Source of the DNA: an uncultured SAR116 cluster alpha proteobacterium
GTDB taxonomy: Bacteria > Pseudomonadota > Alphaproteobacteria > Puniceispirillales > Marisalimonadaceae
Assembly (NCBI GenBank): GCA_902593735.1
Contig: CACJJL010000002.1
Coordinates: 1 to 64,000, forward strand
Direction of reading: 5' to 3'
DNA length: 64,000 nucleotides
The notes under the pieces were generated by a model. It worked only from the letters and a program-made list of their open reading frames with translations. It was not told where the DNA came from and made no database searches. Below are positions 41,610 to 60,982 of this stretch, piece after piece. The number at the start of each line of letters is the position of its first letter. Within the stretch, counting starts at the first letter, position 1. The translations under genes and the position numbers were made by a program.

Positions 41610-42668
41610 ATGAAATTCAAATCAAACCTATTTGTAGGTGCTGTAGCTTTAGCTGCAACTAGTTTAGTAGCTGTTTCGGCAAATGCTGACAAGCTACGTT
41701 GGAAAATGCAAAGTACTTGGGGTAGCCAAGTTGCAATTAACGGTGAAGCTGCTGTTTATTTTTCCAATAAAGTTAAGTCAATTTCAGGTGGTGACGTCCA
41801 GTTGAGATTTCACGAGCCAAACGCGCTTGTACCTTCACTAGAAGTCTGGGATGCTGTTAAGAATGGGTCTGTAGATGCAGGTTATACAACACCTGGATAT
41901 CATGCTGGTAAAATACCCGCAGTTTCTTACTTTACAGCTGTTCCTTTTGGTCCAGGTGCAAGTGAGTACCATGGTTGGATGGAATATGGCGGAGGTCAGC
42001 AGTTAAAAGACAGGATTTATGGCGAGTATGGTCTTAAAGCTCTTAATTGTTTAACTCACGCTCCTGAGACATCAGGTTGGTTTAGAAAGAAAATTAACAA
42101 TGTTGAAGAGTTGAAAGGTATGAAAATGCGTTTCTTCGGTCTTGGTGCTATGGTTATGAGTAAATTAGGTGTGTCAACACAATTACTTGCAGGTGGAGAT
42201 ATTTATCCAGCTCTTGAGAAAGGTGTTATTGACGCAACAGAATTCTCTATGCCTACTCACGATTTAAGTTACGGTTTCTATCAATTAGCAAAGTTTAATT
42301 ATTTCCCAGGTTGGCATCAGCAAACATCAATTGGTGAGCTATTAATGAGCACTAAAGGATGGGGTGGTCTAACTAAGACACAACAAGCAGTTATTAACAC
42401 TGCATGTCGTGATACAATGTGGTGGGCTTTAGTTAGATCTGATGCTAAGCAAGTTCCTGCTATGGCAGAGCTAGAGAAAAAAGGTGTTACATTCGTAACA
42501 TGGCCTGACTCAGAAATTTCTAAGTTCAAAAAAGCTTGGGATGCTGTTGTTGAGGAGAAGTCAGCATCTGACCCTCTTTTCAAAGAAATTACTGCTAGCT
42601 ATAACAAGTTCAGAGAAGACTACAGTATTTGGTCATCAAGAGCTTATCTAAAAGCTAAAAAGTACTAA
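41610..42668 (+). CDS. dctP: TRAP transporter solute-binding protein (DctP family)
   Basis: A 352-residue periplasmic binding protein. The signal peptide covers residues 1-26 (cleavage after VSANA). The mature protein has the DctP fold with the conserved carboxylate-binding Arg in MKMRFFGLG near residue 172 and GGDIYPALEKGVIDATEF near residue 195. The WKMQSTWGS opening resembles the TakP/'mannitol-chloroaromatic' group that binds 2-oxo or other small carboxylates. AGGGAGGA lies five bases upstream of ATG, which suggests high expression. A terminator-like hairpin follows before dctQ. Confidence 0.9.
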   Translation: MKFKSNLFVGAVALAATSLVAVSANADKLRWKMQSTWGSQVAINGEAAVYFSNKVKSISGGDVQLRFHEPNALVPSLEVWDAVKNGSVDAGYTTPGYHAGKIPAVSYFTAVPFGPGASEYHGWMEYGGGQQLKDRIYGEYGLKALNCLTHAPETSGWFRKKINNVEELKGMKMRFFGLGAMVMSKLGVSTQLLAGGDIYPALEKGVIDATEFSMPTHDLSYGFYQLAKFNYFPGWHQQTSIGELLMSTKGWGGLTKTQQAVINTACRDTMWWALVRSDAKQVPAMAELEKKGVTFVTWPDSEISKFKKAWDAVVEEKSASDPLFKEITASYNKFREDYSIWSSRAYLKAKKY

Positions 42669-42686
42669 TAATATTACTTAATTTTG

Positions 42687-42728
42687 AGTACACTTGTTAT
42701 TTATGGTAACAAGTGTACTTTTTTTTTT
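42687..42728 (+). terminator. Rho-independent terminator/attenuator between dctP and dctQ
   Basis: A perfect 13-base-pair stem (AGTACACTTGTTA with TAACAAGTGTACT, loop of seven) is followed by nine Ts. It lies 18 bases after the dctP stop. dctQ continues on the same strand 73 bases later, so partial termination probably keeps binding-protein transcript above that of the membrane subunits. Confidence 0.88.
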
Positions 42729-42801: not shown

Positions 42802-43413
42802 ATGGCACTGACAGAACAAAATATGGAAGGTCTAATTTCAGTTAGCGAAAAACTTCGTGAAATTGTAAATAGAGTTGGACGTGCTAGTACATGGTTGTTA
42901 GTACCTTTAGTAATAATCACAATGTGGGATGTGGTTGCCAGAAAATTAGTTTGGATACAAATTTGGATGGTGGCTAATTTTGGCTCTTTCTTTGAATCAA
43001 CTCTAATGCAAGAAATGGAATGGCACCTTCATACAGTAGTTTTTTGTTTGGTTTTGGGTTATGGATATACTCACAACAGGCATGTAAGAGTGGATTTTCT
43101 AAGAGAAAATTTTAACTTTCAATCAAAGGCGAAAGTTGAATTTTATGGAAATATATTCTTTATGCTACCATTTACACTTATTTGTGTATATTTTTCTTGG
43201 ATTTATATGGTAGATTCGTACATAATTAAGGAAGTATCCGCATCATTAGTTGGTTTAAGTAATAGATGGATTATAAAAACATTCTTGCCTATTGGGTATT
43301 TCTTTTTATTCTTAGGTGGAATGTCAGTTATGATACAATTAATCGCTGTAATTTGGGGCGATAATAAAAAGAAACTTGATCTTATGGTACTTGATTATGA
43401 TAAAAGTAAATAA
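42802..43413 (+). CDS. dctQ: TRAP transporter small membrane subunit (DctQ)
   Basis: A 203-residue membrane protein with four helices (~35-55, ~75-95, ~110-135 and ~160-185). It has the DctQ-type E-x-x-W/H segment MQEMEWHLHTVVFC and the RHVRVDFL loop near residue 95. It has a G-rich ribosome site (six Gs) five bases before ATG, downstream of the dctP terminator. It forms the transporter membrane domain with DctM. Confidence 0.87.
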   Translation: MALTEQNMEGLISVSEKLREIVNRVGRASTWLLVPLVIITMWDVVARKLVWIQIWMVANFGSFFESTLMQEMEWHLHTVVFCLVLGYGYTHNRHVRVDFLRENFNFQSKAKVEFYGNIFFMLPFTLICVYFSWIYMVDSYIIKEVSASLVGLSNRWIIKTFLPIGYFFLFLGGMSVMIQLIAVIWGDNKKKLDLMVLDYDKSK

Positions 43414-43938: not shown

Positions 43939-45330
43939 ATGGATTTTGTTGATATTATCATAGAATATCTCCCAATTTTTATGTTCCTTACAATGGGTGT
44001 ACTTTTATTTATTGGATATCCTGTTGGTTTCATACTTGGTGGTGTAGCTATAACTTACGGATTTATAGGTTATCTATTTGGAGTTTTCAAAATTGCAGAG
44101 TTTTTTAACTTTGTTCCTCGAATGTGGGGGTTTTCTGCAGAAAACCTAATATTAGTGGCCATACCAAGCTTTGTTTTTATGGGAACCATGATGGAAAGAA
44201 GTGGTATTGCTAACGACTTATTAAGAACAACACAGATTTTACTTAGAAAAGTTCCTGGTGGATTGGCTATGTCTGTGACAGTTATGGGTACGGTTTTGGC
44301 AGCTATGACAGGTATCATTGGTGCTTCAGTTACTATGATGACAGCACTAGCATTACCTACAATGTTAAAAAATAAATATAGTCATGCACTTTCTACTGGA
44401 GTAATTGCAGCATCAGGTACTCTAGGAATACTTATTCCGCCAAGCATTATGTTGATTATAATGGCTGACATTATGCAGGTTTCTGTTGGAAACTTGTTTA
44501 TGGGAGCAGTTATTCCAGGATTAACATTAGCTTTAATGTACTTAGTTTTCATTTTTGTGTGGTGTTCTATTGACCGAAATGTTGCACCAGCCCTTAAAGA
44601 AGGAGATTTGGAATATGAAAAGGGTAAATTACCGCAAATGGTCTTAAAAGCATTTCTACCGCCAGTTGCATTGATCGTTCTTATCAAAGGTTCAATTTTG
44701 CTTGGATGGGCAACACCTAGTGAAGCTGGTGCAGTTGGAGCCTTTGGAGCAACAATATTAGCTATAATTGGAAATAAATTCACTATACCTATGTTAAGGA
44801 GTGTTTTGCATTCATCTGGTCTAACTATTTCTATGGTCTTTATGATCATTTTAAGTGCTACATGTTTCGCTTATGTGTTTAGATCGCTTGGTGGAGACTA
44901 TATTGTGGAGGAGCTTATCGAAAAGGCTGGTCTTGGATCTTGGGGTTTATTATTTCTTTTAATGGGAATGACATTTTTACTTGGATTTTTCCTAGATTGG
45001 GTTGAAATTACTTTAATTATTCTTCCAATATTCGCTCCACTTGTGGTTCTACTAGATTTTGGTGATCATGTTTCACAATTAACTGGCCTTGATGGTCGTA
45101 AAGAAACTATGGTGTGGTTTTTAGTCTTGATGGCGATTAACCTTCAAACTTCATTTCTTACACCACCATTTGGTTTTGCTCTATTTTACTTAAAAGGAGT
45201 TGCTCCTCCTGAAGTTGCTACATTAAGTATTTATAGAGGTGTTATACCTTTTGTTATTATACAGTTAATAGGTCTAGGCTTCGTTATATATCAACCAGAA
45301 ATGGCGTTGTGGCTGCCACGACTTATATAG
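43939..45330 (+). CDS. dctM: TRAP transporter large membrane subunit (DctM)
   Basis: A 463-residue permease with about 12-14 hydrophobic segments. The DctM repeat motifs are visible: VAIPSFVFMGTMMERSG near residue 70, the GTLGILIPPSIMLII block near residue 152, the GWATPSEAGAVGAFG segment near residue 255 and LTPPFGFALFYLKG near the end. It carries the sodium-coupled translocation path. A terminator hairpin follows the stop within 14 bases. Confidence 0.92.
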   Translation: MDFVDIIIEYLPIFMFLTMGVLLFIGYPVGFILGGVAITYGFIGYLFGVFKIAEFFNFVPRMWGFSAENLILVAIPSFVFMGTMMERSGIANDLLRTTQILLRKVPGGLAMSVTVMGTVLAAMTGIIGASVTMMTALALPTMLKNKYSHALSTGVIAASGTLGILIPPSIMLIIMADIMQVSVGNLFMGAVIPGLTLALMYLVFIFVWCSIDRNVAPALKEGDLEYEKGKLPQMVLKAFLPPVALIVLIKGSILLGWATPSEAGAVGAFGATILAIIGNKFTIPMLRSVLHSSGLTISMVFMIILSATCFAYVFRSLGGDYIVEELIEKAGLGSWGLLFLLMGMTFLLGFFLDWVEITLIILPIFAPLVVLLDFGDHVSQLTGLDGRKETMVWFLVLMAINLQTSFLTPPFGFALFYLKGVAPPEVATLSIYRGVIPFVIIQLIGLGFVIYQPEMALWLPRLI

Positions 45331-45343
45331 AAATTAACAAAAG

Positions 45344-45366
45344 CCGCATCTTGATGCGGTTTTTTT
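45344..45366 (+). terminator. Rho-independent terminator after dctM
   Basis: CCGCATC-TT-GATGCGG forms a seven-base GC-rich stem and is followed by seven Ts. The next gene's ribosome site (AGGAT) begins directly after the T-run and its ATG is 12 bases from it. No promoter fits between, so read-through of this terminator, or a promoter inside dctM, must serve the downstream genes. Confidence 0.82.
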
Positions 45367-45377
45367 AGGATCAATAA

Positions 45378-46313
45378 ATGGATAAAATTGGGATCTGTGG
45401 CGCGGGTTTGATTGGAGCAAGCTGGGCAATTGGTTTCGCAAATGCTGGTTTTAAATGTTTTGTTTATGACGTAAATCAAAATAGTTTTGCAAAATTTAGG
45501 AAAACATCAAACAAATTAATTCAAGATTTACGTATAATTAATCCCGATATTAACGAAGATAGGATAAATTCTAATATAAAACTTAACTGTAATATTGAAG
45601 AAATTTGCAATGACTCTATGTTAGTCCAGGAAAGTGTTATAGAAGATTTAGAGATTAAAAAAAAAATTTTTGTACAATTAGATAAACTAACATCAGAAAA
45701 TACTATAATTGCCTCATCATCATCTTACCTTTTAATATCTAGAATTTCGGAGCTTGTTAAACACAAGCATAGATGTATTAATGCTCATCCAGCGTTGCCG
45801 CCACATATTGTTCCATTTGTTGAAGTTGCTGGTGGGGAAAATACCGATTCTAAAATTATTAAACAAGCTGTCTCAATATACAAAAAAGCCAAATATGCTG
45901 CTATAACTGTAAATAAAGCGGCAGAAGGTTTTATTTTAAATAGATTGCAGGGTGCTCTTCTTAACGAAGCAGTTAGACTTCACGAAGGAGGTTTTGCTTC
46001 TATGGAAGATATCGATATAGCTTTAAAACATGCATTAGGCATAAGGTGGGCATTCATGGGTCCCTTTGAGATTATGGATTTAAATGCGCCAGAGGGTATT
46101 AAAGATTCTTTTACTCGATATAGAAAGGGTATACAAAATTTAGCTAAGGAGCAAAATAGTGTTCCTGAATATTCAGAAGAATATTTAAATAAATTAGAAA
46201 TGGATCAAAGAAAAAGATTATCTTATGATCAAAGGGATAATAGAGTAGAAAAAAGAAATAAAATGATTGCATTAATTAGAAAGCTTAAATCTGAATTAGG
46301 AGAGGATATTTAA
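45378..46313 (+). CDS. 3-hydroxyacyl-CoA dehydrogenase family (3-hydroxyacid/gulonate-type)
   Basis: A 311-residue NAD-dependent dehydrogenase. Rossmann motif GICGAGLIGASWA is at the N-terminus. The catalytic His region is INAHPALPPHIVPFVEV near residue 138 and the C-terminal domain contains GIRWAFMGPFEIMDLNAPEG. The latter pattern favours the lambda-crystallin/L-gulonate 3-dehydrogenase and carnitine dehydrogenase side of the family, which act on free 3-hydroxyacids. The next gene encodes a BKACE, which would cleave the resulting 3-keto acid. Confidence 0.84.
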   Translation: MDKIGICGAGLIGASWAIGFANAGFKCFVYDVNQNSFAKFRKTSNKLIQDLRIINPDINEDRINSNIKLNCNIEEICNDSMLVQESVIEDLEIKKKIFVQLDKLTSENTIIASSSSYLLISRISELVKHKHRCINAHPALPPHIVPFVEVAGGENTDSKIIKQAVSIYKKAKYAAITVNKAAEGFILNRLQGALLNEAVRLHEGGFASMEDIDIALKHALGIRWAFMGPFEIMDLNAPEGIKDSFTRYRKGIQNLAKEQNSVPEYSEEYLNKLEMDQRKRLSYDQRDNRVEKRNKMIALIRKLKSELGEDI

Positions 46314-52053: not shown

Positions 52054-54351
52054 ATGAATGATGTTGATATTTTAAAAAAAATTGAAAAGAAAGTGTTGTG
52101 GCTTGCTTGTTGGATGATTCATAATGCAAATCATATTAGAGAAAATCAAGATAGCCTTAAAGTTGGTGGTCATCAAGCTAGTTCTGCTTCAATAGTTTCT
52201 ATAATGACAACCTTGTATTTTAGTATTTTAAAACCTGAAGACAGAGTTGCAGTTAAACCACATGCAAGTCCAGTATTTCATGCTATTCAGTATTTATCTG
52301 GATTGCAAACTAAAGAAAAAATTCAAAACTTTAGAGGTTTTGGTGGTGCACAATCATACCCGTCTAGAACAAAAGATATTGATGATGTTGATATTTCGAC
52401 TGGATCAGTTGGATTAGGTGTGGCAATGACAAGTTTCATTTCATTAATTCAAGATTATATTGCAAGAAAACAATTTTACAAAAACAAACCGTTAGGGAGA
52501 ATGATTGCATTAGTTGGTGATGCAGAGCTAGATGAGGGTAATGTTTATGAGTGTCTTCAAGAAGGTTGGAAACATGATTTAAGGAATGTTTGGTGGATAA
52601 TTGATTATAACCGACAATCACTTGATGGAGTTGTCCATGAAGGGTTATCTGAAAGGCTAAGTTCAGTTTTTTCAGCTTTTGATTGGAACCTTGTAGTATT
52701 AAAATATGGTAAATTACAAGAAGAAGCATTTAAAGAGCCAGGTGGAAATAAATTAAGAAAATGGATTGATGATTGCCCTAATCAATTATATTCAGCTCTA
52801 ATTTTTGAAGGTGGTGAAGCTTTTAAGAAAAGAGTTTTAGATGATATTGGCGATCAATCTGAGATTTCAAATCTGATTAATAAAAGATCTGATTCTGAGT
52901 TTTTAGAATTAATGTCAAATTTAGGAGGTCATTGTATTTCTACTCTTTGTAAGTCATTTAATAAAATTAAGAATGATAAACCAACTGCTTTCATTGCATA
53001 TACAATTAAAGGGTGGGGCACTCCATTAGCAGGCCATAAAGACAATCATGCTGGTCTTATGACTAAAGCTCAAATGGAAGATTTTAAATCTAAATTAGAA
53101 ATTAATGATGGTGAAGAATGGAATAATTTTTCTGCCGAAAAAAAACATTTAAATATAGATGAATATATAAAAAACCTACCTTTTCAAAAAGCAGGTCATA
53201 GAAAATTTGCTGGAAATAAAGTTGTAATTGATGAACCAATTTTGATTATTGATAATAAAATATCTACTCAAAGTGCATTTGGAAAAATTCTAGATTCATA
53301 TGCAAAAAACAATACTGAATTTACCCAAAGAATTGTAACCACATCGCCCGATGTATCAGTTTCGACTAACCTTGGATCGTGGATTAATAGAAGAGGATTG
53401 TTCAGTAGAAAAGATAATTCTGATATTTTTAAGGATAGGAAAATACCTTCTGCTCAAAAATGGATTTTTTCTCCAGATGGACAGCATATAGAGCTTGGTA
53501 TAGCTGAAATGAATTTATTTATGATGCTTGGGTCCGCTGGTCTTTCTCATGAGTTATTTAATGAAAGATTGTTCCCTATAGGCACAGTTTATGATCCGTT
53601 TATAGCACGAGGTTTAGATGCTTTAAACTATGCTTGTTATCAAGATGCAAGATTTATAATTGTAGGAACTCCCTCTGGTGTCTCCTTAGCACCAGAGGGC
53701 GGTGCACATCAATCTATTGGAACTCCTTTAACTGGCATAAGTCAGCCAGGCCTATTAAGTTTTGAACCTGCTTTTGCAGATGAGCTGTCAATTATGATGA
53801 ACTACAGTTTTAATTATTTGCAAGATGAAAATGGGGGTTCAGTATATATCAGATTAAGCACTCGATCTATTGATCAACCATCTAGAGAATTAACTAAAGA
53901 TTTACAAGATCAAATTTTAAAGGGAGGATATTGGTTAAAACAACCTGGTTCAAATCCAGAAATCATATTAGCCTATCAAGGTGTTATAGCAGCAGAAGTC
54001 ATTGAAGCAACTGCTAATTTAGGAGAAAAATTTAGAGATGTTGGGGTCCTAGCTATTACGAGTTCAGACATATTATTGAGTGATTGGAAAAATAAACATT
54101 TATCTCCAAATCAAAATAACACTAAATCTCATATTGAAAATTTATTAAAAGATGTTCCAAGAGACACGAAGATTTTGACAGTAATTGATGGTCATCAATT
54201 AACATTATCTTGGTTAGGCTCTGTACTTGGTCATAAAGTAATACCTCTTGGAGTTGATTTTTTTGGACAAACTGGAAATATAAAAGAACTTTTGACAGAG
54301 TTTGCAATTGACTCTGGTAACATAAGTAACTTAGGCTTTAAATTTGCCTAA
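52054..54351 (+). CDS. AceE-like thiamine-diphosphate dehydrogenase/transketolase
   Basis: A 765-residue protein of the homodimeric pyruvate dehydrogenase E1/transketolase type. The N-terminal GGHQASSASI and NHIREN stretches recall AceE. The ThDP/Mg motif is GDAELDEGN at 155-163, ending in IDYNRQSLDG ~25 residues later. A second ThDP-interacting domain (~475-620) contains ELGIAEMNLF. It is about 120 residues shorter than E. coli AceE. No E2/E3 genes are nearby, so the true substrate may be another 2-oxo acid or aldehyde. It is divergent from the Lrp-type regulator and 31 bases from dctP. Confidence 0.8.
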   Translation: MNDVDILKKIEKKVLWLACWMIHNANHIRENQDSLKVGGHQASSASIVSIMTTLYFSILKPEDRVAVKPHASPVFHAIQYLSGLQTKEKIQNFRGFGGAQSYPSRTKDIDDVDISTGSVGLGVAMTSFISLIQDYIARKQFYKNKPLGRMIALVGDAELDEGNVYECLQEGWKHDLRNVWWIIDYNRQSLDGVVHEGLSERLSSVFSAFDWNLVVLKYGKLQEEAFKEPGGNKLRKWIDDCPNQLYSALIFEGGEAFKKRVLDDIGDQSEISNLINKRSDSEFLELMSNLGGHCISTLCKSFNKIKNDKPTAFIAYTIKGWGTPLAGHKDNHAGLMTKAQMEDFKSKLEINDGEEWNNFSAEKKHLNIDEYIKNLPFQKAGHRKFAGNKVVIDEPILIIDNKISTQSAFGKILDSYAKNNTEFTQRIVTTSPDVSVSTNLGSWINRRGLFSRKDNSDIFKDRKIPSAQKWIFSPDGQHIELGIAEMNLFMMLGSAGLSHELFNERLFPIGTVYDPFIARGLDALNYACYQDARFIIVGTPSGVSLAPEGGAHQSIGTPLTGISQPGLLSFEPAFADELSIMMNYSFNYLQDENGGSVYIRLSTRSIDQPSRELTKDLQDQILKGGYWLKQPGSNPEIILAYQGVIAAEVIEATANLGEKFRDVGVLAITSSDILLSDWKNKHLSPNQNNTKSHIENLLKDVPRDTKILTVIDGHQLTLSWLGSVLGHKVIPLGVDFFGQTGNIKELLTEFAIDSGNISNLGFKFA

Positions 54352-54382: not shown

Positions 54383-55378
54383 ATGATGAATAAATTAATT
54401 AAAATACTAATAATAAGTTTTACGAGCTTATTTTTTACTGCTAATGCTTTCGCTGCAGATGTAACGATGAGGATATCATTGCAGTTGCCTATGAAAAGTC
54501 ACTTAGGTCAAAATTTACTACTCTTTAAAAAAGAAGTTGAAAGTAGATCAAATGGAGAAATCAAGGTCGAAATTTACGACTCAGCGCAGCTTTATAAAGA
54601 TAAAGAAGTACCTGCAGCAGTTGGTTCTGGATCGATTGAATCAGGTGTGGCGTCATTAACAAGATATGTTGGTGATATTCCAGCAGTTGATTTATTCTAC
54701 CAACCATTCTTGTTGAATACTGACAAAAAAGTAAGAAAAGCTGTTTCCAAAGGTTCTTCAATCAGAGGACCAATAGATAACGCAATTAAAAATACTGGCT
54801 CAACTGTATTATGGTGGCAAGCCTATGGTAACGCAATAATGCTTTCAAAAGGTATAGCTATTAAAAATCCTTCTGATATGAAAGGAAAAAAAGTTAGAGT
54901 TTTTGGAAAGACCTTAGGTACTTTTGTGAAAGCAGCAGGAGGAGCACCCACATTGATCTCTGGTTCCGAACAATATTTAGCTTATCAAAGAGGTACAGTT
55001 GATGTTGGGATGACAGGCGTGTCAGGTGTGAAGTCAAGAAAATTATTTGAGGTTATGGATACTATAACAAAAACTAATCATGGAGTAATTGAGTTTATTG
55101 TTGTTGCTAATACAAAATGGTTTAATAGTCTATCAACAAAACAAAAGGATATCATAATTAAATCCGCAGAAATTGCCGAAAAAGATGTGCGTGACAATGT
55201 CGCTAAAATTGAGCAGGAAGCATATGATTTAGCTAAGTCGAAAGGAATGAAAATTGTAACTCCAAGTAAAGCTGATATTGATGCTTTTAAGTCTGCATCT
55301 AAACCAGTTTATGAAGATTATAAGAAAAATGCCGGATCACTTGGTTCGCAGCTTTTAGATGCAGCCTCTAAATTATAA
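54383..55378 (+). CDS. dctP: TRAP transporter solute-binding protein (DctP family)
   Basis: A 331-residue periplasmic protein with signal peptide MMNKLIKILIISFTSLFFTA (cleavage near residue 24, ANAFA). The mature domain shows DVTMRISLQLPMKSHLG, the middle GKKVRVFGKTLGTF (carboxylate-binding Arg near residue 173) and SGSEQYLAYQRGTVDVGMT. A good AGGAG ribosome site precedes ATG. It starts 31 bases after the AceE-like gene and belongs to the nitrile hydratase operon. The ligand is unknown. Confidence 0.9.
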   Translation: MMNKLIKILIISFTSLFFTANAFAADVTMRISLQLPMKSHLGQNLLLFKKEVESRSNGEIKVEIYDSAQLYKDKEVPAAVGSGSIESGVASLTRYVGDIPAVDLFYQPFLLNTDKKVRKAVSKGSSIRGPIDNAIKNTGSTVLWWQAYGNAIMLSKGIAIKNPSDMKGKKVRVFGKTLGTFVKAAGGAPTLISGSEQYLAYQRGTVDVGMTGVSGVKSRKLFEVMDTITKTNHGVIEFIVVANTKWFNSLSTKQKDIIIKSAEIAEKDVRDNVAKIEQEAYDLAKSKGMKIVTPSKADIDAFKSASKPVYEDYKKNAGSLGSQLLDAASKL

Positions 55379-55387
55379 ATTTTAAAA

Positions 55388-55416
55388 AGAGAGAGTTTTA
55401 AACTCTCTCTATTTTT
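55388..55416 (+). terminator. Terminator-like hairpin abutting the dctQ start
   Basis: AGAGAGAGTT pairs with AACTCTCTCT (stem about ten bases, loop of three to four), followed by A and five Ts. The dctQ ATG follows at 55417, directly after the T-run. No separate ribosome site fits between. The GA-rich left arm is the only purine stretch, so the hairpin may both attenuate transcription and control dctQ translation. Confidence 0.65.
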
Positions 55417-55911
55417 ATGATGATTTATTTCGAAAAAATTATAGATTTAGTTGCCTGGTTGTCAGCATGGTTATTTTGTATAGCTGGTTTTATGCTTTCA
55501 TATGAAGTTGTTGCTAGATACTTTTTTTTAGCACCTACTTCGTGGGCCGCCGAACTTAGTCAACTTTCACTTATTTATGGTACCTTATTAGCTATGCCTT
55601 GGGCATTAAAGTCAAGAAAACATATTCAAATAAATTTAGTAATCAACAGACTATCCAAGACCAATAAAAAAATAATTAATATTTTAATTATGATAATCTT
55701 AATTATTTTTTCTTCATATGTTATGATTTTTGGTTTTGAAATTTTTTATGATTCTTTTTTTAGAGGCAGGACCACAGGAAGTTTATTAAACCTACCGTCA
55801 TGGATTGCTGAGTTGTCTGTCCCATTATGCTTTTTTTTGCTTTTCATACAGTCAATTTTTGAAATTATCAAATTGTTAAAAAATATTGAACCACCAGAAA
55901 GTAATCATTAA
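55417..55911 (+). CDS. dctQ: TRAP transporter small membrane subunit (DctQ)
   Basis: A 164-residue protein with four membrane helices (~12-32, ~45-65, ~85-105 and ~125-145). It has the DctQ pattern MLSYEVVARYFFLAPTSWAAELSQ and the RKHIQINLV loop near residue 70. It starts at the ATG that touches the upstream hairpin; a second ATG follows immediately. The dctM start is two bases after the stop. Confidence 0.88.
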   Translation: MMIYFEKIIDLVAWLSAWLFCIAGFMLSYEVVARYFFLAPTSWAAELSQLSLIYGTLLAMPWALKSRKHIQINLVINRLSKTNKKIINILIMIILIIFSSYVMIFGFEIFYDSFFRGRTTGSLLNLPSWIAELSVPLCFFLLFIQSIFEIIKLLKNIEPPESNH

Positions 55912-55913
55912 TT

Positions 55914-57188
55914 ATGACTATATTCTTAGTTCTAACATTGATGTTTGTTTTATTATTATCTGGTCTACCAGTATCTTTTTCTCTTGGTTTTCTTGGACTT
56001 TCAATGTTAATTTTTGGTGGCTTTTCACCTTTAATGGCACCTCAGGCAATTTTGTCGACCCTTGATGGTTTTATTTTACTTGCAGTTCCACTTTTTCTTT
56101 TAATGAGCAATGTGCTCTTAAAAGGTGGATGTGGGAAAGATTTATTTAATGCTGTACAAGCCTGGGTTGGACACTGGCCTGGTGGTCTAGCAGTGGCAAC
56201 AATTATTTCGTGTGGTATTTTTGCTGCTATTTCTGGTGTATCTGTCGCAACTGCAGCCACCATTGGTGTTGTTGCTATACCAGAAATGATCAAAAGGGGA
56301 TATAATAAAAATTTTGTTTATGGACTTTTAGCTGCTGGTGGAACATTAGGAATATTAATACCTCCAAGTTTGCCAATGATTGTATATGGTTTCATTACAG
56401 AGGAATCTGTAATTGCATTATTTCTTGCAGGAATCGGGCCAGGGATTTTCTTAATATCTTTGTTTATTATTTATTCTATAGTGTTTTCTCAATTTTTTGG
56501 TGGTTTTAAAAAATTAGAACCAAGCAGTTGGGATGTAAAAAAAAATACTTCCAAAAAAGTAATTCCTACAATTATTTTAGCCGTTTTAATACTCGGCGGA
56601 ATTTATACTGGTGTATTCACTCCAACTGAAGCTGCAGCAATAGGTTTTTCTTTGTCTTTAATTATAACTGTACTTATATTAAAAACTTTAACTTGGGCTG
56701 ATTTTAAAGAAGCTGTTTTTGAGTCAATGGTAACCACTGCTGCTATTTTGATTATAGTTGCATGTGCAAAAACATTCGGAAAGGCAATTGCACTATATAG
56801 AATTCCTCAGGATATATCTTACTTCATTAGTTCAACCATCGATACAAAAGCTCTTTTTATGATTGTCGTATGTATAATTCTAGTTGCCATGGGATTAGTT
56901 TTTGAAACTTTGTCAATGGTTATAATAATGGTACCAGTTCTATTACCAGCTGCAATGGCAATAGGGGTGGATCCTATTTGGTTTGGTATTTTTATGGTTA
57001 TTATGGTTGAGTGTGCTTTGATTACACCTCCCGTTGGATTGAATCTTTATGTAATACAGTCTGTAGCAAAAACTCAACTAGGAGAGGTCGCTAAAGGAGT
57101 GTTCCCTTTTATAGTGATGATGATTTTCACAGTTTTTGTAATGTATATATGGCCTGACTTAGCACTCTATATTCCTTTTAAATTATAA
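55914..57188 (+). CDS. dctM: TRAP transporter large membrane subunit (DctM)
   Basis: A 424-residue permease with about 12 membrane segments. It shows LAVPLFLLMSNVLLKGG near residue 60, VATAATIGVVAIPEMIKRG, GTLGILIPPSLPMIVYG near residue 143, the FTPTEAAAIGFS segment and LITPPVGLNLYVIQ near residue 365. It is translationally close to dctQ. It completes the second TRAP transporter, encoded within the nitrile hydratase operon. Confidence 0.92.
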   Translation: MTIFLVLTLMFVLLLSGLPVSFSLGFLGLSMLIFGGFSPLMAPQAILSTLDGFILLAVPLFLLMSNVLLKGGCGKDLFNAVQAWVGHWPGGLAVATIISCGIFAAISGVSVATAATIGVVAIPEMIKRGYNKNFVYGLLAAGGTLGILIPPSLPMIVYGFITEESVIALFLAGIGPGIFLISLFIIYSIVFSQFFGGFKKLEPSSWDVKKNTSKKVIPTIILAVLILGGIYTGVFTPTEAAAIGFSLSLIITVLILKTLTWADFKEAVFESMVTTAAILIIVACAKTFGKAIALYRIPQDISYFISSTIDTKALFMIVVCIILVAMGLVFETLSMVIIMVPVLLPAAMAIGVDPIWFGIFMVIMVECALITPPVGLNLYVIQSVAKTQLGEVAKGVFPFIVMMIFTVFVMYIWPDLALYIPFKL

Positions 57189-57222: not shown

Positions 57223-58122
57223 ATGAAAAATAAAACAGCTTTAATTAAAAAAATAAGTCAGCCTGATAATTTAAGAAAAATTTTAAATGAAAAATCATTT
57301 GTACCAATACCGTCATGTTTTGATGCTTTATCTGCTAAATTGATTGAACAAGCTAATTTTGATGTAACCTTTATGTCAGGGTTCGCTGCGTCCGCTTCTA
57401 GGATAGGATCTCCAGATCTTGGACTAATGACCTTTTCAGAGGTTTTTGATCAGGCTAATAATATCTGCAATGCAATTGAAATACCGATGATTGTAGATGG
57501 AGATACTGGATATGGAAATGCTATGAATGTACGAAGAACATTAAAGGAATGCTCCAAGGCAGGTTGTGCTGGCATTTTAATTGAAGATCAATTAGCACCA
57601 AAGCGTTGCGGTCATACACCAGGAAAAGATGTGGTTAATCGAGAAGAAGCGTTTGATCGGATAAGAGCAGCTAGCGATATGAGAAATGAAGGATATGATA
57701 TTTTAATTACGGCAAGAACTGACGCCAATCACACTCACGGTCTCAGTGAGGCAATATCAAGATCACAAAAATTTTATGAACTTGGAGCAGACATCATGTT
57801 TATTGAAGCCCCTAAAAATAAGGAAGAAATGAGAACAATCTGTAAAGAAGTTCCAGGTGATAAAATTGCTAACATTGTTGAGGGTGGCATTACACCAAAT
57901 TTATCTATGAAAGAATTAGCAGAAATTGGGTATAAACTTGCTGTGTACCCACTTACAGTTATGAGTTCAGCAATGAAAGCAATGACAAACTCTTTAAATT
58001 TACTGATGAAAGATGAAGATAGGTCTGGGTTATTACTAGATTTTAGTGATTTAAGACAAAAAATTGGATTTGACGATTATTACGAAATATCAAGCAAGTA
58101 CGAAACTTCAAAAAGAAGTTGA
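57223..58122 (+). CDS. Isocitrate lyase/PEP mutase superfamily enzyme
   Basis: A 299-residue TIM-barrel enzyme with VDGDTGYGNAMN (Mg-binding region) and the active-site loop EDQLAPKRCGHTPGK, in which C129 lies in KRCGH. That Cys is the catalytic acid of 2-methylisocitrate and dimethylmalate lyases and is often missing in PEP mutases and oxaloacetate decarboxylases, so C-C lyase activity is likely. ITARTDAN and FIEAPKNKEEM follow. GGGG-rich ribosome site absent; AGGGGA lies upstream. It is between the TRAP transporter and the first zinc dehydrogenase. Confidence 0.86.
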   Translation: MKNKTALIKKISQPDNLRKILNEKSFVPIPSCFDALSAKLIEQANFDVTFMSGFAASASRIGSPDLGLMTFSEVFDQANNICNAIEIPMIVDGDTGYGNAMNVRRTLKECSKAGCAGILIEDQLAPKRCGHTPGKDVVNREEAFDRIRAASDMRNEGYDILITARTDANHTHGLSEAISRSQKFYELGADIMFIEAPKNKEEMRTICKEVPGDKIANIVEGGITPNLSMKELAEIGYKLAVYPLTVMSSAMKAMTNSLNLLMKDEDRSGLLLDFSDLRQKIGFDDYYEISSKYETSKRS

Positions 58123-58149
58123 TAATTTTTAGATGGGGAGAATTGTTTA

Positions 58150-59196
58150 ATGAAGAGTTATCAGGTTGTTGAGTTTGGTAAACCTTTAGAATTAAGAGAA
58201 TATGAAAATCCACAACCTAAAGGAGATGAAGTTCTTGTAAAGATTACAGCTTGTGGTGTTTGTCACAGTGATCTTCATTTGGCAGATGGTTATTTTGATT
58301 TAGGAGATGGAAAAAAAATAACATTGGCTGATAGAGGAACAAAATTACCATTTACGCCAGGACACGAGATTACTGGAACTGTAGTTGCTCTTGGTGAGAA
58401 AGTAAAAGACATTAAAATAGGTGACTCAGGAATAGTATTCCCTTGGATTGGTTGTGGAAAGTGTGAAGCATGTTTGGAGGATAATGAAACATTGTGTGAA
58501 ACGCCTAAATATTTGGGTGCTCGTCTTAATGGAGGCTATTCAGATCATATCATTGTACCTGATAGTAAATATATTGTTTCTTATGGTGACATGGACCCTG
58601 CGCAAGCAGCACCATATGCATGTTCAGGATTAACTGCATTTAGTGCTTTGAAAAAAATTCCTACAACTTCAAAAGACGATTGGATTATAATAATTGGTGC
58701 AGGTGGTGTTGGTATAAATGGTATTTTATTGTCACCTGCAACACATAAAGCAAAAATTCTAGTAATAGATAATGATCCAGAAAAGAGGGAAAAGGCTATT
58801 GAAGCTGGTGCTAATGAAGCTTTTTCACCAGACGACGAAACTGAAATTAGAAATAAAATTGGAATTGGAGCCTCAGCAGCAATTGATTTTGTTGGTAGAC
58901 CTGAAACTACTGACTTAGGTCTGTCGCTTGTAAAAAAAGGAGGTATGGTAATTGTTGTAGGTTTATATGGAGGATCATTAAAACTTTCATTGCCATTAGT
59001 TCCAATGAGATCTATGACACTTAGAGGTTCTTATGTCGGTGAATTAAGGGAATTAAAAGAACTAGTTAATATTATTAAATCCGGCGAAATAAAATTAATA
59101 CCAGTAAAAAAACAAGGATTAGAAACAGCAAATCAAGCAATGTCTGATCTAAGGTCTGGTAAAGTTAATGGAAGAATAGTTTTAATTCCAAATTAG
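58150..59196 (+). CDS. Zinc-dependent alcohol dehydrogenase (MDR family)
   Basis: A 348-residue medium-chain dehydrogenase. Catalytic zinc ligands are C38 (CGVCHSDLH) and H72-E73 (PGHEITG), and structural zinc cysteines are C102, C105, C108 and C116. The Rossmann stretch is IIGAGGVGING near residue 185. Substrate unknown; it oxidises an alcohol or reduces an aldehyde, likely NAD(P)-dependent. It precedes nitrile hydratase alpha by 31 bases, with GGGGAG before its ATG. Confidence 0.9.
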   Translation: MKSYQVVEFGKPLELREYENPQPKGDEVLVKITACGVCHSDLHLADGYFDLGDGKKITLADRGTKLPFTPGHEITGTVVALGEKVKDIKIGDSGIVFPWIGCGKCEACLEDNETLCETPKYLGARLNGGYSDHIIVPDSKYIVSYGDMDPAQAAPYACSGLTAFSALKKIPTTSKDDWIIIIGAGGVGINGILLSPATHKAKILVIDNDPEKREKAIEAGANEAFSPDDETEIRNKIGIGASAAIDFVGRPETTDLGLSLVKKGGMVIVVGLYGGSLKLSLPLVPMRSMTLRGSYVGELRELKELVNIIKSGEIKLIPVKKQGLETANQAMSDLRSGKVNGRIVLIPN

Positions 59197-59227
59197 AAAT
59201 ATTAAATCAAAAAAAAGAGATTAGATT

Positions 59228-59869
59228 ATGAATAAAAAGAAAGATATTAGCGGTGACCATCATCATCCACATGATCAAGCGCATTCACATTTGCCATCAG
59301 ATCCTGAATTGAGAGTAAAAGCTGTAGAGACTTTACTTTTAAATAAAGGTTTAATTGACTCTAAAACTTTAGATGAATTGATTGACACTTATGAGAATAG
59401 AATAGGTCCTAAAAATGGAGCAAAAGTAGTAGCTAAAGCCTGGGTAGATCTAGAATATAAAAAAAGACTTTTGAATGATGCGACATCAGCAATTAGAGAA
59501 TTGAGTTACCAAGGAAGACAGGGTGAAAATATGGTTGTTGTTGAAAACACAACTGAAACTCACAATGTAATAGTTTGTACATTATGTAGTTGTTATCCAT
59601 GGCCAGTCCTTGGCATTCCCCCAACTTGGTATAAAAGTGATGAATATAGATCTAGAACAGTAAGAGAACCTAGAAAAGTTCTTCTAGAATTTGGCTTATC
59701 TTTAGACCCAAAAGTTCAGATAAAGGTATGGGACTCTACCGCTGAAATAAGATATTTGGTATTACCAATGAGACCAAAAGGTACAAAAAATATGGATGAA
59801 CGTGAACTTGCAGAATTGGTAACAAGAAATTCAATGATAGGTACTGGATTACCAAAGGAAATAAAATGA
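59228..59869 (+). CDS. nthA: Nitrile hydratase alpha subunit (cobalt type)
   Basis: A 213-residue metallosubunit. The metal claw is C117-T-L-C120-S-C122 followed by [13 protein letters not shown]. Thr after the first Cys and Tyr after the last favour cobalt rather than iron (Fe enzymes have CSLCSC and T). C120 and C122 would be oxidised to sulfinate and sulfenate. The N-terminus carries a His/Asp-rich stretch ([13 protein letters not shown], residues 9-21) that may bind metal. The stop overlaps the beta start (ATGA). It hydrates a nitrile to an amide with the beta subunit. Confidence 0.95.
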
Positions 59870-60606
59870 GTAGAATGCACGACATGGGTGGTCGTTTTGG
59901 TGATGGATTAATTCCTGTTCCAAGAGATGACGAAAATGAAGTAACTAACTTTGAACCAACTTTCAAATATGAATGGCATGCTAAGGCATGGGCAATTACT
60001 CTTGCTGCTGGAGCTTTAGGTGAATGGAATCTAGATATTAGTCGTCACTATAGAGAGTGTTTGCCACCAAAAGATTATATAAATTTTTCCTATTACGAAA
60101 AATGGTTAGCAGCTCTTACTAACCTTTTAATAGATAAAAAACTTGTTTCGTTTGATGAGTTAAAAGAATATGTTTCTAAAGCAAAAAATGGAACTTTAAA
60201 AAAATTCTCTAATAAAGACATCAAACTTGATCGCAGAACTTGGTTAGCTAAAGATGTTCAAAAAACACTAGGTTGGGGAGGTCCTTCTATTAGAGACACA
60301 AATATAAATCCTGTTTTTGATATAGGCGATAAGGTTATTACACAAAATTACAGTCCAAATAAAGATGTTAGTGGTGGTCATACACGATTACCAAAATATG
60401 CCATGGGAAGAGTTGGAGTAATTCATTCTTATAACAACAACCATGTTTTCCCTGATAAAAATGCTCATGATTTGGGAGAGAACCCCTTACCATTGTATAC
60501 TGTAGAGTTTAAGTCTTCAGAGTTGTGGGGAGAATTGGCCGAGAATGAAAATGACAGTATTTTCTTAGACTTGTGGGAACCATACCTAAAACTTTTTCCA
60601 CATTAA
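59866..60606 (+). CDS. nthB: Nitrile hydratase beta subunit
   Basis: A 246-residue subunit with the N-terminal [26 protein letters not shown] and C-terminal [17 protein letters not shown] (the HTRxPRYxRGKxGxI family block) followed by LWGE and FLDLWEPYL. It is one continuous chain. Thiocyanate hydrolase would have split beta- and alpha-type chains instead, so nitrile hydratase is the better call. Starts within the alpha stop (four-base overlap). Confidence 0.95.
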
Positions 60607-60622
60607 TTTTAAAAAGATAAAA

Positions 60623-60982
60623 ATGAAATCTTATTATAATTTACCTTTTACGAATAAAACTCAAGATCAAATTGTTTTCCAAAATCCTTGGCATAGTCAG
60701 TTATTTGCGATTACAGTTCAAATGTCCGAGAAAGGAAATTTCAGCTGGAAAGAGTTTGTAGATGTTTTCGAAAAGTCACTAAAGAAACAAAGATCACTTT
60801 CAAAAAACTTAGATGGTAGTAATGATTATTTTTCTTGTTGGTTAAATGCGCTTGAAGAAATCCTCATTATAAAAAAAGTAAGTAATAAAGATACCTTGAT
60901 GTTATTAAAAGAAGACTGGACTCAAGCTTATTTGTCCACACCTCATGGCAAGCCGGTAAATATTAAAAATAGGAGTGTTTAA
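60623..60982 (+). CDS. Nitrile hydratase activator/accessory protein (P14K/NhlE type)
   Basis: A 119-residue protein with the FQNPWHSQLFAITVQMSEKGNFSWKEFVDVF pattern and YFSCWLNALEEIL of the nitrile hydratase accessory family. In cobalt enzymes this chaperone carries the alpha subunit and loads cobalt by subunit swapping. It is encoded just after the beta gene (16-base gap), and its stop is adjacent to the next ATG with no gap. The third-gene position supports the cobalt assignment. Confidence 0.88.
   Translation: MKSYYNLPFTNKTQDQIVFQNPWHSQLFAITVQMSEKGNFSWKEFVDVFEKSLKKQRSLSKNLDGSNDYFSCWLNALEEILIIKKVSNKDTLMLLKEDWTQAYLSTPHGKPVNIKNRSV

Follow-up and report, generated by a model that had tools for sequence, protein, structure and literature searches.

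TRAP transporters play an important part in uptake by marine bacteria. A stretch of 64,000 nucleotides from a SAR116-clade alphaproteobacterium (the window; own assembly 1.81 Mb) carries two operons for such transporters, and in both of them a hairpin lies between dctP, the gene for the substrate-binding protein, and dctQ, the gene for the small membrane subunit (Table 1). The first-pass annotation had pointed to these two hairpins, and that of the second operon is present where it had placed it. For the second operon, it had proposed that the hairpin attenuates transcription and also controls the translation of dctQ by concealing a ribosome site. Here we ask what the hairpin of the second operon does: does it end transcription, does it restrict access to the dctQ start, or does it form the 3' end of a dctP mRNA?

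Table 1. Positions of the two TRAP operons, their hairpins and neighbouring elements in the window.
Feature	Position	Strand	Evidence or remark
dctP, TRAP substrate-binding protein	54383..55378	+	PF03480 183.9 bits; NCBIfam TRAP_S1 134.2 bits
dctP stop codon TAA	55376-55378	+	
RNA hairpin, 10 bp, 3-nt loop, 9 nt past the dctP stop	55388..55410	+	folding, covariation, junction control
AU-rich tail ATTTTT	55411..55416	+	U-rich in 16/21 family junctions; sequence not fixed
First in-frame ATG	55417..55419	+	unique to the window sequence among 20 aligned rows
dctQ from the conserved start, small membrane subunit	55420..55911	+	PF04290 87.8 bits; start by alignment
dctM, large membrane subunit	55914..57188	+	PF06808 342.1 bits; TIGR00786
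dctP, first TRAP operon	41610..42668	+	PF03480 138.5 bits
Hairpin, first TRAP operon: 16 bp, loop of 3, then T-run	42686..42720	+	z -5.63 to -6.50
dctQ, first TRAP operon	42802..43413	+	PF04290 37.9 bits

The arms of the hairpin, AGAGAGAGTT (55388-55397) and AACTCTCTCT (55401-55410), enclose the loop TTA (55398-55400), and the stem is followed by ATTTTT and then by two ATG codons, at 55417 and 55420. Positions 55360-55460 fold as RNA with -21.3 kcal/mol, whereas shuffled versions average -13.7; z is -2.96, and an equally good fold arises in 2 of 200 shuffles. The stem itself is only moderately stable, at -12.3 kcal/mol with four G-C pairs. On its own, such single-sequence evidence is weak. A generic terminator pattern occurs at chance rate (four in 10 kb, 5.0 expected by shuffling), and since this pattern is not rare in 10 kb, the case for the hairpin rests on conservation. 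No Rfam family matches the hairpin region at gathering score, the matches in the window being one tRNA and one SRP RNA. The minus strand has promoter-like matches near 55372-55465; over the 10 kb such matches number 39, against 45.7 in shuffles, and so are not in excess.

Orthologs were collected by a search with the dctP protein against 121 genomes (30 matched, own genome included) and by a search for dctM in named genomes, from which 80 of 189 relatives were kept. With repeats among L010-L119 removed, the set comprises 81 unique dctP windows; L073, L082 and L110 are without dctP. The first-pass annotation had called for a check of covariation in the stem, and covariation was found. Scored on eight core pairs of the ten in a 20-row alignment of SAR116 orthologs (A1, with L017 and L022 left out), it reaches 0.300, against 0.116 in shuffled alignments and 0.009-0.065 in slid registers. 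In the same rows, 98.1% of the cells of the core pairs can pair, and 14 cells are changed on both sides of a pair, against 4.1 in shuffles; one measure, the tally of doubly changed pairs (three), is not above shuffles (142 of 500 are as high). The changes observed in the stem run from G-C to C-G to U-A, and from G-C to A-U. Each of the 21 unique junctions of the SAR116 family that have a dctQ match carries a hairpin of -10 kcal/mol or lower; outside the family, the stem has an entirely different sequence, but a hairpin is mostly kept. Because close orthologs share kinship, these counts are not independent events. Judging by these alignments, the hairpin is under selection.

A hairpin that sets subunit stoichiometry has three marks: a stable stem-loop between the gene for a binding protein and that for a membrane subunit, a structure that is kept by selection and is specific to this junction, and more or longer-lived mRNA for the binding-protein gene than for the genes behind it. 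The first two were found here, the second by the covariation and by comparison of junctions. Folding of the 63 nt past the stop codon gives z <= -2, the threshold used here, after dctP in 62 of the 81 unique orthologs, and in control windows at 3/77 dctQ 3' ends, at 8/78 dctM 3' ends and in 6/81 windows inside dctP. With the SAR116 family left out, the counts are 40/59 after dctP, 2/58 after dctQ and 8/60 after dctM. Across 19 SAR116 loci with 76 co-directional gaps of 20-150 nt, every dctP-dctQ junction has a z of -2.67 or lower, and the structure is nearly absent from the other junctions of the same loci (3/57 reach z -2). Within the 64-kb window, both dctP junctions pass, as do 2 of the 44 other co-directional junctions. 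The threshold is missed by 19/81 orthologs, and by 26/50 loci of the broad sample described below, which makes the hairpin common, not universal.

The hairpin lies near the dctP stop. In 79 of 80 unique junctions with a dctQ match (hairpin <= -10 kcal/mol, regions of up to 110 nt past the stop), a median of 12 nt (IQR 10-17) separates the dctP stop from the G-C stem, a narrow spread, and a median of 16 nt (IQR 8-33) separates the G-C stem from the dctQ start, a wide one. Stems start 5-20 nt past the dctP stop in 58/79 junctions, and end 5-20 nt before the dctQ start in 43/79. These distances suggest that the partner of the hairpin is dctP, an argument that is moderate because the search region began at the dctP stop. 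The two TRAP systems had been thought to carry their hairpins at an identical operon position, which is true of the proximity to the dctP stop only: in the first operon, 17 nt separate dctP from the hairpin and 81 nt separate the hairpin from dctQ, so that the position of the hairpin matches the dctP stop, not the dctQ start.

The own genome has nine dctP genes, and an intergenic hairpin is present in six of the eight that have a presumed dctQ behind them; the ninth, with no presumed dctQ behind it, likewise ends in a hairpin. The two exceptions, L003 and L008, have gaps of 11 and 18 nt to dctQ. At L003 (11-nt gap), a 16-bp hairpin lies inside the first codons of dctQ, and z <= -3 is reached in 25 of 29 unique relatives of this locus, against 3/29 at the threshold in a control placed 200 nt deeper into the next gene. 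Measured at the proper stop, L235, L247 and L254 of this group have z values of -5.04, -2.30 and -6.16, and L256 has no hairpin (z 0.42). In the alignment of this group (A2, 18 of 29 distinct windows), five pairs show double changes, and none of 500 shuffles matches any of the five measures of covariation. In L244, L245 and L248 (the relatives span L228-L257), the hairpin at the dctQ start is degraded, and another strong hairpin lies deeper in dctQ. For the L008-type operon, z <= -2 in 9/25 unique windows, against 0/25 controls, makes a weak case for a hairpin. In the L003 and L008 window set, the stop of L275 is doubtful by eye, and L284 is too short.

The hairpin also recurs in other genomes. 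In five SAR116-order genomes, z <= -2 is found at 29 of 39 dctP loci (30 of 37 matches, plus the nine of the own genome), a count that includes L128 with a z of -4.27 and is 28/39 otherwise; most of the loci under the threshold are those with a gap of 10-13 nt or with no dctQ nearby. A broad sample from Proteobacteria was also examined, made up of the dctQ matches that scored best in 114 and 120 genomes and not drawn at random. Here the threshold is reached at 24/50 dctP-dctQ junctions, against 2/48 dctQ 3' ends, 9 of 59 loci without a dctP match having been left out. Sorted by gap, the broad sample gives 15/27 for gaps of 30-150 nt and 7/19 for gaps under 20 nt. At these other loci, the gene behind dctP was mostly called dctQ by its position. 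A strong hairpin is also found after the stop of ABC-type binding-protein genes in four SAR116-order genomes (L150-L168), with z <= -2 in 10/19.

From its conservation and its place, we consider it probable that the element is a stoichiometry hairpin, that is, a 3'-end element of the dctP part of the dctPQM mRNA, which would stabilise the dctP mRNA, end it, or do both. Given the size of the ribosome footprint, a hairpin lying about 9-12 nt past the dctP stop would stand approximately where a ribosome has its front edge during termination. After cleavage of the downstream dctQM part by an RNase, the hairpin would block 3'-5' exonucleases; the SAR116 hairpins, with their U-rich tails, probably end a share of the transcripts as well. 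Decay protection and termination would both leave more dctP mRNA than dctQM mRNA, and we propose that the soluble binding protein would therefore be made in excess over the membrane subunits. We infer this effect on mRNA and protein ratios, and equally the split between decay protection and termination.

Related elements have been described for other operons. In the decay-regulated ABC operons found in E. coli, the stabilised gene always encodes the substrate-binding subunit; the protective hairpins lack a U-tract, intrinsic terminators having been excluded beforehand by the authors, and 17 of 26 sit inside the next gene (PMC5927463), as the hairpin of the L003 group sits inside dctQ. The malE-malF intercistronic structure of E. 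coli and the hairpins that Dar and Sorek tied to differential decay (2018; PMC5927463) resemble the element studied here in that they follow the operon-first binding-protein gene, are without a U-tract and often lie inside the next gene. They differ in that they concern ABC operons with measured half-lives, whereas we deal with TRAP operons and with sequence evidence only. In Clostridia, stem-loops after ABC binding-protein genes are partial terminators with reduced U-tracts, and such stem-loops are predicted in E. coli (Wu et al. 2022, PMC9045158). The likeness lies in a stem-loop directly behind the 5' binding-protein gene and in a U-tract weaker than that of ordinary terminators. Those stem-loops belong to clostridial ABC importers, with termination established by experiment (in E. 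coli by prediction), whereas those of SAR116 and other Proteobacteria belong to TRAP operons and are known from their sequence alone. The puf operon of Rhodobacter capsulatus (PMC6238624) is likewise alphaproteobacterial, and stabilising secondary structures together with RNase E sites set its subunit ratios, but its genes serve photosynthesis, not transport.

For TRAP operons, a literature search that mostly covered journals open without subscription found no report of a hairpin between dctP and dctQ, and in the accessible part of a TRAP review (PMC5812351) neither "stem" nor "intergenic" occurs, nor do "terminator" and "mRNA". For ABC importers, regulation within the operon of the ratio between binding protein and membrane subunit has been described; as the hairpin trick is already known there, its wide occurrence in TRAP operons is modestly new. 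The hairpins at 29/39 SAR116-order and 24/50 broad-sample dctP genes suggest that two unrelated transporter classes have arrived at the same RNA solution. A simple rule could thereby predict the subunit ratios of uncultured bacteria from their sequence.

As for termination, we scored the tail as U-rich if T makes up at least five of the 8 nt that follow the last G-C pair. By this measure, the tail is U-rich in 16 of 21 SAR116-family junctions and in 7 of 10 close relatives beyond the family (seven of the same order, three further), against 21% of shuffled junctions. These tails speak for a mainly leaky intrinsic terminator, at whose U-tract the polymerase would stop in a fixed share of rounds, with no role in stabilisation, and so do the long T-run behind the hairpin of the first TRAP operon and the finding that stem-loops after ABC binding-protein genes are partial terminators in Ruminiclostridium (PMC9045158). 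We regard this explanation as possible but doubtful. Only 9 of 48 more distant relatives have such a tail, and the hairpin is present there nonetheless; tails vary even among orthologs whose dctP is 97-99% identical to that of the window; in L143, the relative from G030 of the junction in the first TRAP operon, a 13-bp hairpin is kept but no T-run follows it; and a hairpin within the coding sequence of dctQ is hard to explain by termination alone. If the count starts where the folded stem ends, at least five T are found in 18/78, which would be unfair as evidence against termination because A-U pairs swallow the tail. As the family tails are U-rich after the last G-C pair, partial termination is a possibility. 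Measured against an intrinsic terminator, which has a G-C-rich stem and a direct U-tract, the window offers four G-C pairs and a U-rich tail. The SAR116 element thus looks like a weak terminator, and elsewhere it looks mostly like a plain hairpin. The transcription attenuation that had been proposed for the hairpin is plausible but unproven.

A broader scheme, which we hold to be unlikely, would make the SAR116 hairpin a dual device, shifted to about 7 nt from a dctQ start that lacks a Shine-Dalgarno (SD) site: it would set the P:QM mRNA ratio and, when folded, limit dctQ to ribosomes that have completed dctP and start again beyond the hairpin. In TRAP operons throughout Proteobacteria, steady selection would keep such a hairpin where the binding-protein gene ends, while its sequence could change and it could even shift into dctQ.

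Control of dctQ translation as the main function, in which the folded hairpin would block the 30S subunit at the SD-less start so that dctQ is made only by ribosomes coming from dctP, appears improbable. It gains some support in the SAR116 family, where the last G-C pair lies a median of 7 nt before the dctQ start and where an SD-like 4-mer shortly upstream of dctQ is lacking in all 21 orthologs, a result that holds under the pattern applied to the window genes. The closeness is lost, however, in seven order-level orthologs (median 49 nt), and the median is 19 nt in the other 51, while the hairpin stays; in the first TRAP operon the spacing is 81 nt, and dctQ has its own GGGGGG run just upstream. 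Moreover, SD-less starts are common: among 67 mechanically called window genes, an SD-like site is present in 26 and absent in 41, against a random coding background of 12.9%. With the hairpin only 7 nt away, initiation at dctQ may still be hindered in the SAR116 family, but this spacing is not kept elsewhere.

The start of dctQ itself bears on this alternative. The first-pass annotation had the T-run of the hairpin touching the dctQ ATG, which is correct for the window sequence. Since the ATG at 55417 is found in none of the 19 other aligned rows, and the ATG at 55420 is common to 20/20, the conserved dctQ start is 55420. The first-pass annotation had also considered the GA-rich left arm a possible ribosome site hidden by folding, and this idea has to be abandoned. 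The distance from the arm to the ATG downstream is 22-29 nt for the first and 25-32 nt for the conserved one, and the arm is replaced by other arms in relatives; distance and non-conservation rule it out as an SD site, in line with the 0/21 count. A hairpin that hides a ribosome site would hold the dctQ ribosome-binding site paired in its stem, and no such pairing was found.

That the palindrome arose by chance, or is a DNA-level site without an RNA role, has a negligible probability. Similar terminator-like patterns are indeed expected about five times per 10 kb by shuffling, but the covariation in the stem and the junction control (19/19 dctP-dctQ junctions against 3/57 others) rule it out, and the hairpin recurs in paralogs and distant orthologs whose stem sequences are unrelated.

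In the first TRAP operon, a stem-loop with a T-run (45328-45390; z -3.90) lies behind the presumed dctM and before the next co-directional gene, and it is probably the terminator of that operon. Upstream of dctP in the second operon, positions 52054-54351 encode a 765-aa protein that resembles a transketolase or pyruvate dehydrogenase E1 and scores far under the curated cut-offs for aceE and transketolase. Downstream of the transporter (57223-60982), there are a gene of the PEP-mutase/isocitrate-lyase family and a nitrile hydratase alpha chain gene, with an alcohol-dehydrogenase-like gene, judged by eye, between the two, which suggests a catabolic cluster.
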